A DNA stretch of 64,000 nt from Thiosulfatihalobacter marinus (lineage in GTDB: Bacteria; Pseudomonadota; Alphaproteobacteria; Rhodobacterales; Rhodobacteraceae). Below are positions 3,719 through 10,426 of this stretch, in pieces (positions within the stretch are counted from its first letter, which is position 1; every line of letters starts with the position of its first letter). Location: contig NZ_JAECRZ010000004.1 of the NCBI RefSeq assembly GCF_016019955.1, forward strand, positions 62,001-126,000. Reading direction: 5' to 3'. The notes beneath the pieces were generated by a model. It had not been told where the DNA came from. It did not search any database and saw only the letters and a list, made by a program, of their open reading frames with translations. The position numbers and the translations under genes are program-made.

Positions 3719-3748
3719 TGTGATCACAGAAATTTATTCGTGATCACA
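3719..3748. promoter_or_regulatory. paired palindromic operator upstream of sdhCDAB
   Basis: The perfect 10-bp palindrome TGTGATCACA (3719-3728) is followed by CGTGATCACA (3739-3748); their centres are 20 bp apart, about two helical turns. The same arrangement occurs upstream of sucC (10396-10426). The pair lies 118-147 bases upstream of the sdhC ATG in the only sizeable non-coding gap before the operon. The spacing suggests two dimers binding side by side on one DNA face. The regulator cannot be named from the sequence. This is not a CRP/FNR site, because the two half-sites touch instead of being separated. Confidence 0.7.
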
Positions 3749-3886
3749 TCTCCCGCGTTTCCAGGCCGACTCGCCCGAATCCAGCTGGCAAGCGCCCCTG
3801 GTCCGCGCCCGGCAGGTGAATCACCCCGGCCCCGGAATGTTTGCGCTCACAGGCGAATAGGCTGAAAATCCATGCCTTTCCCGATG

Positions 3887-4552
3887 TCATGGCCCCAACC
3901 CGGAAACCTGCACCGCCAATTCCCGGATCAGTTTTTGCCGGATGCGCCCCGGGTAGTCCTCGAATCCGTTCGCCGTCACGACAAAAGCCCCCGCACCTGT
4001 GATCACATTCTTCCGGAAATACGCCGTGAGGTCGATCTCGTCCGTTTCGATCACAAGCGCATTAACGGTGATTCCCGCCCCGGCCAGGATCGCCCTGGCT
4101 CCGGATGGGGCACCGCCTTCGTTGGAAATCCCGTCGCTGGAAATATCAACGATCCTGCGACGACAGTCCGGCGCGTCCCGGAACAATTGGCGCGATGCCA
4201 CCATCGCGTCGCCGATTGCGGTGGAATACATGTCCCATCGTCGCGGCGCCACTTCAACCGCCCGTGCCAACTGCTCGGCCTCGGCCCCGCTGCGCACCCG
4301 CATCCACGGCACACTTAACGCCTGACGGCCTTCTCCGGTCCATTGCAGCATCGCAACGGCAGCCTCGCCCGTAACCAGCGCGTCCACCACCGCCCCATCG
4401 CGCAACGCCGCCGCAAGCCCGGTCTGCTGCACCTTGAATTCCAAGGGGTCGATACTGCCCGATACATCCACAGCCAACACCAGCGCCACGTCGCAGGCAG
4501 GCGCGGCAACGGGCCACAAAAGCCCCCAGATCAAGGCAAATCGGCGCAACAT
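3887..4552 (-). CDS. DUF1194 family secreted von Willebrand A-like protein
   Basis: The 221-residue product has a likely signal peptide (MLRRFALIWGLLWPVAAPA) and then CDVALVLAVDVSGSIDPLEF, where DVSGS is a metal-ion-dependent adhesion (DxSxS) motif of von Willebrand A folds. A later TDEID and the GDAM...SS segments fit the rest of the fold. This agrees with DUF1194, an alphaproteobacterial periplasmic family of unknown role. It stands alone between the sdh promoter and the mch operon on the minus strand. The ribosome binding site before the ATG is weak. A TGTGATCACA copy lies inside it at 3998-4007. Confidence 0.8.
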   Translation of the reverse strand: MLRRFALIWGLLWPVAAPACDVALVLAVDVSGSIDPLEFKVQQTGLAAALRDGAVVDALVTGEAAVAMLQWTGEGRQALSVPWMRVRSGAEAEQLARAVEVAPRRWDMYSTAIGDAMVASRQLFRDAPDCRRRIVDISSDGISNEGGAPSGARAILAGAGITVNALVIETDEIDLTAYFRKNVITGAGAFVVTANGFEDYPGRIRQKLIRELAVQVSGLGP

Positions 4553-4610
4553 GCACCGATACTACCCCACATGGCACGGATTTTCCCTACATTCCCGCAT
4601 CCCCGCACAC

Positions 4611-4637
4611 AAAAAGGCGGACCGGCGCCCGCCCTTT
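4611..4637 (-). terminator. Rho-independent terminator after mch
   Basis: Read on the minus strand, AAAGGGCGG pairs (one bulge) with CCGCCTTT across an 8-base loop and is followed by further T residues. It lies 27 bases past the stop of the mesaconyl-CoA hydratase gene and so ends the mcl2-NnrU-DUF1737-mch transcript. Confidence 0.65.
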
Positions 4638-4656
4638 CATTGTTCCCAAAATACTC
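4636..4656 (+). repeat. degenerate copy of the AAATACTC intergenic box
   Basis: TTCATTGTTCCCAAAATACT followed by C matches the shared box of the elements at 18159, 28810 and 33762 (TTCATTTTGCC..AAATACTC) but has no GC-rich hairpin behind it. It lies in the short gap after the mch stop codon, on the opposite strand to mch. Confidence 0.4.
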
Positions 4657-4663
4657 AATCTGC

Positions 4664-8426: not shown

Positions 8427-9389
8427 ATGGCCAGACCCAAGATTGCCCTCATCGGCGCAGGCAACATCGGCGGCACGCTCGCCCATCTCGCAGCACTCAA
8501 GGAACTGGGCGATGTCGTCCTCTTTGACATCGCGGATGGCCTGCCCCAGGGCAAGGCGCTCGACATCGCAGAATCCGGCCCCGTCGAAAAAATCGACGCC
8601 GCCATGTCCGGCACCAGCGATTATGCCGACATCGCCGGCGCGGATGTCTGCATCGTCACCGCCGGTGTCGCCCGCAAGCCCGGCATGAGCCGCGACGACC
8701 TGCTGGGCATCAACCTCAAGGTCATGAAATCCGTGGGCGAGGGCATCCGGGAACATGCCCCCGATGCGTTCGTGATCTGCATCACCAACCCGCTTGATGC
8801 GATGGTGTGGGCGCTTCAGAAATTCTCGGGCCTGCCCGCGAACAAGGTCTGCGGCATGGCCGGCGTGCTTGATTCGGCCCGCTTCCGCCACTTCCTGGCC
8901 GAAGAGTTCAACGTGTCCATGCGCGATGTGACGGCGTTTGTTCTGGGTGGTCATGGCGACACGATGGTGCCCTCGGTGCGCTATTCCACCGTTGCCGGCA
9001 TCCCGCTGCCCGACCTGATCGAAATGGGCTGGACCACACAGGAAAAGCTGGACGCCATGGTCCAGCGCACCCGCGATGGCGGCGCCGAGATCGTGGGCCT
9101 GCTGAAAACCGGCTCCGCCTTCTATGCGCCCGCCGCCTCGGCGATCGAAATGGCCGAAGCCTATCTGAAAGACCAGAAGCGCGTTCTGCCCTGCGCCGCA
9201 TATTGTGACGGCGATCTGGGTGTAAAGGACATGTATGTCGGCGTCCCCACCGTGATCGGCGCCGGCGGTATCGAAAAAATCGTCAACATCAAGCTCAACA
9301 AGGAAGAGCAGGAAATGTTCGACACTTCGGTCAAGGCCGTTCAGGGCCTTGTTGACGCCTGCAAGGGCATCGACGACTCGCTGGCCTGA
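8427..9389 (+). CDS. mdh: malate dehydrogenase (NAD)
   Basis: Oxidises malate to oxaloacetate in the TCA cycle. The 320-residue protein is of the lactate-dehydrogenase-like class typical of alphaproteobacteria: GAGNIGG at residues 8-14 binds [17 protein letters not shown] is the mobile substrate loop with its arginines, and [11 protein letters not shown] carries the catalytic His. [18 protein letters not shown] and the C-terminal segments are intact. It starts the plus-strand TCA block; a strong terminator separates it from the genes that follow. Confidence 0.97.
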
Positions 9390-9410
9390 TCCCCACGCCA
9401 TTCCATTGCG

Positions 9411-9441
9411 AAAGCCCGCCCCATCGGCGGGCTTTCCTGCG
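9411..9441 (+). terminator. Rho-independent terminator after mdh
   Basis: AAAGCCCGCC and GGCGGGCTTT form a perfect 10-bp stem around a 5-base loop (9411-9435), 21 bases past the mdh stop. The T-tract is short and mixed. mdh is therefore probably its own transcript. Confidence 0.75.
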
Positions 9442-9510
9442 TTTTGGACTTGCACGGCGGGCCAGAATGGCAAAGCTGCGCGGCATGTCATTCGATCCGG
9501 CACGAGGCAC

Positions 9511-10353
9511 ATGACAGGGTACATGAAGGGCCTGAACCGCAAGATTTCCGCCGCCAACGGCCTCAAGCTGCTGGGCGAGCGCAATTCGGGAACCAATTTT
9601 CTCGAAACCCTTTTGCGCGACCATTACGATCTGCACCTTTACCCCAACACGCCTATCGTGGGCGGCAAGCTGATCCCGACCGCGCCCGGGGGCCATATCC
9701 CCGAAGGCATCGCCGGAAAGGCCGCGCGCGAGGCGGTGGGCGACCATCTGCACTATGTGCAACTGCCCGAAAGCGGCGGCTGGAAACACGCGGCGCCGGA
9801 CGAACGGTTCTACCGCGAATTCATCCTGCCCCGCGACCCGGCGGTGCTGATCCTGATCCGCCACCCCGCCAGTTGGCTGGCGTCGATGCACCGTAATCCG
9901 TTTCACCGGCTGGTGCATATTCCCGACGATTTCTCGCGCTTTATCCGCCAGCCCTGGCTGACCCTGCCGCGCGACGGTCTGGGGCCTCGCCAATATGACA
10001 CGATCATCGACATGCTGGCCGCCAAGGCACTGGCCTATGACCGGTTGACAATTCGCCATGAGAACAGCGCCGTCCTGCGATACGAGGATCTCGCACAGGA
10101 TCCGCAATCCACATTGGCCACACTGGGCCTGACCCCGCGCGCGCCCTTTTCCAGCGACCGCCCCGCGCCGGACGCACGCCCCTTCATTCAGCCCCGCCGC
10201 CGCTGGTGGCAGTTGCGCCGCTCCGCGCAACCCGCCAGGGATTACCGCGCCCGGGCCGCCCAGGCGGGCTGGAATCAGCTTGCGGACAAGGACCGAGATT
10301 TTGTGCTGGAGCGGCTGGCCGATTCACCTCTGATTCAGCTTTTTCCGCGCTGA
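9511..10353 (+). CDS. sulfotransferase-like P-loop protein
   Basis: A protein of about 280 residues. LLGERNSGTNFLETLL near the start resembles the P-loop-like PAPS-binding segment of sulfotransferases, and LILIRHPASWLASMHRNPF resembles their second conserved block (R..P..W..S). AVLRYEDLAQDPQSTLATL matches the usual 'Y.DL...P' region. The acceptor is unknown; a role in modifying surface polysaccharide is a guess. Start choice is uncertain (ATG 9511 or 9523). It lies alone between the mdh terminator and the suc promoter on the same strand, and its Arg-rich C-terminus is unlike its metabolic neighbours. Confidence 0.65.
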   Translation: MTGYMKGLNRKISAANGLKLLGERNSGTNFLETLLRDHYDLHLYPNTPIVGGKLIPTAPGGHIPEGIAGKAAREAVGDHLHYVQLPESGGWKHAAPDERFYREFILPRDPAVLILIRHPASWLASMHRNPFHRLVHIPDDFSRFIRQPWLTLPRDGLGPRQYDTIIDMLAAKALAYDRLTIRHENSAVLRYEDLAQDPQSTLATLGLTPRAPFSSDRPAPDARPFIQPRRRWWQLRRSAQPARDYRARAAQAGWNQLADKDRDFVLERLADSPLIQLFPR

Positions 10354-10395
10354 CAAGGCGCGCCTGACGTTCCGTTAGCGCCACCTGACAAGTTT

Positions 10396-10426
10396 TGTGA
10401 TCACACCATTTCCAAGTGTGATCACA
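10396..10426. promoter_or_regulatory. paired palindromic operator upstream of sucC
   Basis: Two perfect copies of TGTGATCACA (10396-10405 and 10417-10426), centres 21 bp apart, lie 96-126 bases upstream of the sucC ATG in a 168-base gap. They repeat the arrangement seen upstream of sdhC. A T/A-rich stretch (ATATTTGAAAAAATCC) follows directly and may overlap the promoter. Confidence 0.75.

Follow-up and report, generated by a model that had tools for sequence, protein, structure and literature searches.

Paired palindromes upstream of the sdh and suc operons of Thiosulfatihalobacter marinus as probable operators of an AkgR-type GntR/FCD regulator

We analyzed a 64-kb stretch of the Thiosulfatihalobacter marinus genome (the window, meaning that whole stretch), in which two 10-bp palindromes lie close together upstream of each of the sdh and suc operons. 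We conclude that these pairs are probably operators of the orthologue of AkgR, a regulator of the GntR/FCD family, with two dimers occupying each pair and activating sdhCDAB and sucCD-sucAB together. The analysis thus proposes a likely regulator for the operator and describes a single operator design for two tricarboxylic acid (TCA) cycle operons, present in most of the sampled genera of the family Rhodobacteraceae.

Paired palindromes upstream of sdhC and sucC

Pattern search of the window confirmed the four sites and the two spacings that a sequence-only reading of this DNA had reported. Upstream of sdhC, a putative proximal operator with an exact TGTGATCACA (core GTGATCAC) lies at 3719-3728 and a putative distal operator, CGTGATCACA, with one mismatch to TGTGATCACA, at 3739-3748; upstream of sucC, exact copies of TGTGATCACA at 10396-10405 and 10417-10426 form the putative distal and proximal operators, respectively. 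No strand is assigned to these sites, and their centres are 20 bp apart upstream of sdhC and 21 bp apart upstream of sucC. The target genes, named by eye from their open reading frames, make up two presumed operons: sdhC (3218-3601), sdhD (2835-3206), sdhA (1018-2823) and sdhB (226-1005) on the minus strand (226-3601), and sucC (10522-11715), sucD (12044-12931), sucA (13660-16617), sucB (16621-18132) and lpd (18312-19709) on the plus strand (10522-19709).

With one mismatch to TGTGATCACA allowed, the window contained 6 matches, as compared with a mean of 1.11 (standard deviation 0.99, largest 4) in 100 dinucleotide-preserving shuffles, which bears out the departure from chance claimed earlier. 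The earlier tally listed the four promoter sites correctly and overlooked two further matches: 3998-4007, an exact copy, lies within a DUF1194 gene on the minus strand (3887-4552), and 12421-12430, with one mismatch, lies within sucD. The whole genome (4,158,699 bases on 66 contigs) holds 6 exact copies of TGTGATCACA: the window accounts for four, the start of a GntR/FCD gene for one, and the last (C53:110639) falls within a frame resembling an RND efflux pump and was taken as chance. With only six exact copies, four of them in the window, the 10-mer is rare in the genome and concentrated at the sdhC and sucC promoters.

The pair is conserved across the family. The pattern GTGATCAC-N10-16-GTGATCAC was searched in 149 family genomes, each from a different genus, and was present in 133 of them, with two matches in 102 genomes, one in 25, three in 4 and four in 2. 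These counts score overlapping triple arrays twice and include some third matches with other spacings; the three matches in each of G069 and G081 fell to two when the pattern was narrowed to N12-13. Triple palindromes in 21-bp steps were found in Pseudotabrizicola algicola (G151:C25:2637-2686), in Rhodobacter calidifons (G150:C11:327609-327658) and at G135:C8:374318-374367, where the array precedes sucC. The reversed pattern, used as a control, contains CTAG, which is often rare in genomes, and out-of-family genomes were therefore preferred as background: in a scan of 289 genomes of the class, the pair was present in all 4 family members and in 5 of the 285 genomes outside the family (L258-L261 and L266). 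All 14 genomes of known name had at least one pair together with an orthologue of the regulator described below; at least four of these are also among the 149, as judged by identical coordinates (G153 and G111, G155 and G037, G159 and G066, G160 and G065).

The placement of the pair is equally regular. Among 75 inspected pair loci (30 retained from the family scan and 45 fetched separately), 70 had the pair upstream of sdhC or sucC. A third pair in G042, with 21-bp spacing (L032:1501-1529), lies about 130 bp upstream of the gene for fumarase C, the next step of the cycle, and a pair in G136 (L119:1501-1529) lies between mdh and sucA and directly precedes sucA, with no sucC or sucD match found at that locus; in the window, sucA follows sucD without a pair of its own. 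The pairs at L031 and L092 (spacing 18) and at L109 (spacing 24) fit no TCA gene tested, and those at L031 and L109 fall inside long open frames. Absence of the pair in close relatives and scattering of copies regardless of promoters, the two outcomes named beforehand as speaking against a shared operator, were both looked for and neither was seen.

Spacing was determined in 87 promoters (45 sdhC and 42 sucC, with 18-24 bp allowed), a non-random set that comprised the genomes with printed pair positions, 15 of the 16 retained named-genome loci and the window, and in which Cereibacter occurs twice; the promoter-position and A/T analyses below drew on this set as well. The centres were 21 bp apart in 81 promoters and 20 bp apart in 6. 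The core GTGATCAC was found in 45 of 45 sdhC promoters aligned on the proximal site, and the distance from the proximal centre to the start codon was 111-195 bp for sdhC and 100-158 bp for sucC.

Two pairs have other surroundings. An extra pair in Shimia ponticola (L233:1501-1528), with centres 20 bp apart, has neighbours that match none of the TCA proteins tested. The pair at L266:1501-1532 (G274, in a different family of the class), the one out-of-family pair for which neighbours were named, has centres 24 bp apart and is flanked by a GntR/FCD gene on one side and an aldehyde dehydrogenase gene on the other, possibly marking a GntR/FCD relative with the same DNA preference and other targets.

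An AkgR-type GntR/FCD protein as the likely regulator

The most likely regulator of the pairs is an AkgR-type GntR protein, although the sequence-only reading had held that the regulator could not be named. According to PMC6365646 (citing Imam 2015), GTGATCAC is the motif of AkgR, a transcriptional activator of Rhodobacter sphaeroides; PMC4344238 describes RSP_0981 of the same species as a GntR regulator with sucCD (RSP_0967-6), sdh (RSP_0974-6) and 2-oxoglutarate dehydrogenase (RSP_0965-62) as predicted targets. If RSP_0981 is taken as AkgR, the system described here resembles that of R. sphaeroides in regulator family, in the operator core GTGATCAC and in having the sdh and suc operons as downstream genes. 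A MerR-type identity of AkgR was also considered, and a MerR_1 search of the genome gave 12 matches; this reading was dropped because RSP_0981 and a Pseudomonas relative are both called GntR (PMC4344238, PMC6365646). The regulator can be named as being of the AkgR type, and the system is therefore known in kind. In the literature searched, which did not extend to the primary AkgR paper, we met no description of the fixed paired layout, nor of the joint absence of regulator and pair, the contrast between one and two sites, the phased A/T runs or the sdhC-flanking copies presented below.

In the T. marinus genome, the GntR/FCD regulator has 217 residues and is encoded at G000:C53:13773-14423, on a contig other than that of the window. 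It matched the Pfam families FCD with 65.4 bits (cut-off 24.3) and GntR with 54.6 bits (cut-off 27). Its best match of solved structure was McbR of Escherichia coli (PDB 4p9f, E 1.9e-20, residues 19-214), a protein with targets other than those found here, and its best NCBIfam match, NF008504, which we take to be the McbR group, reached 85.9 bits against a cut-off of 225, so that the regulator falls outside that equivalog. The Cereibacter johrii genome, reached via its PufM gene, encodes an orthologue with 78% identity located 0.7 kb from sdhB; the same stretch also contains mdh and sucCDAB, a gene order that fits the RSP gene numbers in PMC4344238. As in T. marinus, both operons of C. johrii have a pair; unlike in T. 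marinus, the regulator gene lies beside sdhB rather than on another contig, and no site of its own was found near the regulator start. PS417_07240 of Pseudomonas simiae, a GntR-like protein 32% identical to AkgR, is likewise proposed to bind GTGATCAC, but it controls deoxyribonate genes, and section 9 of PMC6365646 places its palindrome near the regulator start and mentions no pair.

The presence of the regulator tracked that of the pair, which agrees with the earlier claim of one regulator common to both operons. Orthologues (E < 1e-50; second matches in the same genomes reach 43% identity) were found in 133 of the 149 family genomes: 130 had both orthologue and pair, 13 had neither, three had the orthologue only (G040, G122 and G147) and three the pair only (G019, G096 and G114), with a Fisher P value of 1.8e-13 that ignores kinship. 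Among the six discordant genomes, G040 contains a degenerate pair (21-bp spacing, one mismatch in each site), and G122, G147 and G096 may reflect assembly gaps because they are only 73-77% complete. Twelve genomes lacking both had no exact copy upstream of sucC (the thirteenth, G021, had a distant SucC match only and was omitted); a single site is retained in G109 (one mismatch) and in G017 (two mismatches), and G101 lacks both regulator and pair in an assembly of a single contig that is 100% complete. In a SucC tree of 55 rows, the 12 pairless rows need six changes, two of which are forced by well supported branches. Joint absence of regulator and pair in several branches provides natural controls. 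Outside the family, regulator relatives at E 1e-40 were found in 2 of 285 class genomes (38% and 43% identity), and none exceeded 43%.

Mode of binding and sign of control

Each TGTGATCACA would take one dimer, following the precedent of Atu1419, an FCD regulator of the VanR group from Agrobacterium fabrum, for which a crystal structure shows a dimer on a 10-bp palindrome (PMC7797058); a pair would thus hold two dimers side by side on the same face of the helix, two turns apart. Atu1419 and the regulator here share the FCD family and, as proposed for the latter, one dimer per 10-bp palindrome, whereas Atu1419 is a repressor and a tetramer, its palindrome is ATGTATACAT, and its sites are 190 bp apart with looping (PMC7797058). 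Asn138, His142, His185 and Asp207, invariant in 60 of 60 aligned rows (the T. marinus protein counted twice), resemble the Asn-His-His-His metal site of Atu1419 (PMC7797058) but depart from it in the fourth residue, which is Asp. This resemblance suggests that the regulator binds a metal and perhaps a carboxylate effector.

A single site is found at the regulator's own gene. An exact TGTGATCACA lies 8 bp upstream of its start codon in the T. marinus genome, and in 40 of 59 orthologue genes a site with no more than two mismatches occurred close to the start; for 34 of the 59, 7-9 bp separated the end of the site from the first in-frame start codon. In 38 of these 40 cases, no partner with up to three mismatches occurred at 20-22 bp. 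By source, the site was present in 30 of 30 best matches, 7 of 15 genes picked for their position near the pairs and 3 of 14 genes from named genomes. Since binding at a lone site against the start codon would block expression, the regulator probably limits its own amount.

At the two operons, the dimers would bind upstream of the promoter and activate transcription. We applied a simple -35/-10 score to the 42 sucC and 45 sdhC promoters and to 60 shuffles. Measured from the proximal centre, the best-scoring -10 fell close to +75 for 12 of 42 sucC promoters and close to +85 for 18 of 45 sdhC promoters, and no 3-bp bin exceeded 7 in the shuffles of either set. The mean best score was 6.56 for sdhC, as compared with 5.42 when shuffled; for sucC, position alone is informative because the best scores do not beat the shuffles. 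The clusters weakly point to likely start sites near +87 for sucC and +97 for sdhC, ten bases apart. In the window, a possible -35 hexamer of sdhC (GTGACA, 3654-3659, minus strand) and, 17 bases past it, a weak possible -10 hexamer (AGTAAA, 3631-3636, minus strand) were picked by eye where the predicted promoters of relatives cluster. The CGCTTAG block of the window's sucC region lies, by eye, about ten bases closer to the operator than its counterpart in L121, a near relative, and for both genes the score's top match in the window was away from the expected place.

Several points weigh against activation of both operons by an AkgR orthologue bound at the pairs. The identity of RSP_0981 with AkgR is an assumption. 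The orthologue threshold was picked after the results had been inspected, and G019 (91% complete) and G114 (100% complete) have the pair without an orthologue, a discordance not so easily put down to incomplete assembly. The own-gene site was present in 30 of 30 closest relatives and in just 10 of 29 others, and is for this reason regarded as a feature of the closer relatives. The mean best promoter score of sucC (5.82, as compared with 5.97 when shuffled) showed no excess, and a consensus scan of the sdhC and sucC regions of the window returned no promoter. Finally, most GntR/FCD proteins are repressors.

This last point favors the alternative that the same GntR/FCD protein occupies the pairs as a repressor released by a metabolite. 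Atu1419, the FCD relative with a crystal structure, acts as a repressor (PMC7797058), and the four invariant residues hint at an effector pocket. We nevertheless consider this alternative unlikely, because AkgR is termed a transcriptional activator (PMC6365646) and the pairs sit upstream of the promoter-like clusters of relatives rather than over them.

Control of the pairs by a different protein, such as a CRP/FNR-type regulator or the LacI-type CceR, is more improbable still. TGTGA and TCACA equal the CRP half-sites, but half-sites of CRP/FNR-type operators are about 6 bp apart and those of the pairs adjoin. The sequence-only reading had set the adjoining half-sites apart from CRP/FNR sites; the arrangement is not unusual for the FCD group, given the 10-bp palindrome of the Atu1419 dimer (PMC7797058). 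In R. sphaeroides, sdh and further TCA genes are reported or predicted targets of CceR (PMC11323563, PMC4344238), but its predicted motif, [A/G/T]GTT N6-8 AAC[A/C/T] (PMC4344238), is absent from the palindromes as read, the flanking DNA not having been searched. Furthermore, pair presence tracks the GntR gene, although the genomes were not screened for CceR, and a copy of the site stands at the start of the GntR gene. Chance or coding coincidence has virtually no probability left, since single coding copies of the core are partly due to Val-Ile-Thr codons but the pairs occupy two non-coding promoter places at fixed spacing in 133 of 149 genera, a conservation that refutes this explanation for them.

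Phased A/T runs, surplus copies and neighbouring genes

Beyond their probable role as operators of the AkgR orthologue, the pairs may tentatively be seen as part of a larger fixed promoter design that would combine two FCD dimers two turns apart, about four A/T runs phased at about 10 bp on one face of the helix, a promoter placed by whole helical turns and auxiliary coding copies around sdhC. Activation from nearly 100 bp would then proceed via phased minor-groove contacts, bending or wrapping, and the isolated copy would repress the regulator gene, so that the number and place of sites would set the sign of control. If the A/T runs and coding copies matter, the system would offer a clear example of far-upstream activation by an FCD regulator, and the one-site versus two-site contrast allows the sign of control to be tested on short synthetic promoters.

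In sdhC and sucC promoters alike, the A/T content downstream of the pair oscillates with a repeat of roughly 10 bp. From +8 to +50, spectral power was 1.016 for sucC (period 9.75) and 0.684 for sdhC (period 10.25), whereas, for sucC and sdhC respectively, 1000 row shuffles reached at most 0.061 and 0.063 and 1000 cyclic shifts at most 0.159 and 0.167; these statistics ignore kinship. Upstream of the pair, power was 0.055 and 0.062, close to the shuffle maxima of 0.057 and 0.052. The sucC and sdhC profiles correlated at 0.74, the top of 43 shifts, and in 32 of 42 sucC promoters a template derived from sdhC scored above the 95% level of the shuffles. None of 12 pairless sucC regions passed its own 95% level at the best position; at the usual place, however, the pairless G048 (1.66) and G008 (1.51) scored about as high as the regulated mean of 1.57, which weakens the A/T-run reading. 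Bacterial promoters commonly have phased A/T runs nearby, and we regard those seen here as a lead and not as a demonstration. By the family profile, the corresponding regions of the window would be 3676-3710 for sdhC (minus strand, +13 to +47) and 10435-10468 for sucC (plus strand, +13 to +46). Motif finding downstream of the pairs gave no single motif common to the sdhC and sucC promoters.

The third exact TGTGATCACA of the sdhC region, at 3998-4007 (no strand assigned), lies 405 bp upstream of the sdhC start and inside the DUF1194 gene, and may be an auxiliary operator or a coding coincidence. The exact 10-mer was found in none of eight homologous DUF1194 genes, and a genome of the same genus (L267) keeps the core at this position as TGTGATCACG. 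Its absence from these eight genes had suggested chance, a view given up in light of the core kept in the same genus and of the frequent copies around sdhC. Outside the promoter, 23 of 52 sdhC loci together had 27 core copies (0.176 per kb), as compared with 2 in 49 sucC loci (0.014 per kb) and 1 in 80 puf loci (0.007 per kb). Five of the sdhC-locus copies, 3998 included, lie 275-405 bp before the sdhC start, and seven at one place near the sdhC end.

Codon usage accounts for these copies in part, as Val-Ile-Thr codons explain many of them. Val-Ile-Thr occurred 26 times in the aligned genes and was spelled with GTG-ATC in 20 cases against 9.6 expected; for the control tripeptides, the corresponding values were 69 against 41.1 for Val-Ile-Ala and 13 against 17.6 for Val-Ile-Ser. 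The third codon was ACA, which completes the operator, in 11 of the 26 against 2.4 expected, with 7 against 6.2 for Ile-Ile-Thr and 7 against 5.0 for Val-Leu-Thr as controls. These tests were devised after the copy counts were known, and they ignore kinship.

Two observations concern the DNA between the operons. An open frame on the plus strand between mdh and sucC (9499-10353), sulfotransferase-like by eye, had no Pfam match at 0.001, and C. johrii has only a 233-bp gap between mdh and sucC. On the minus strand, genes for a mesaconyl-CoA hydratase-like protein and an HpcH/HpaI-type lyase (4664-5695 and 6487-7398) lie between the sdh and suc operons, and both are likewise present in C. johrii.

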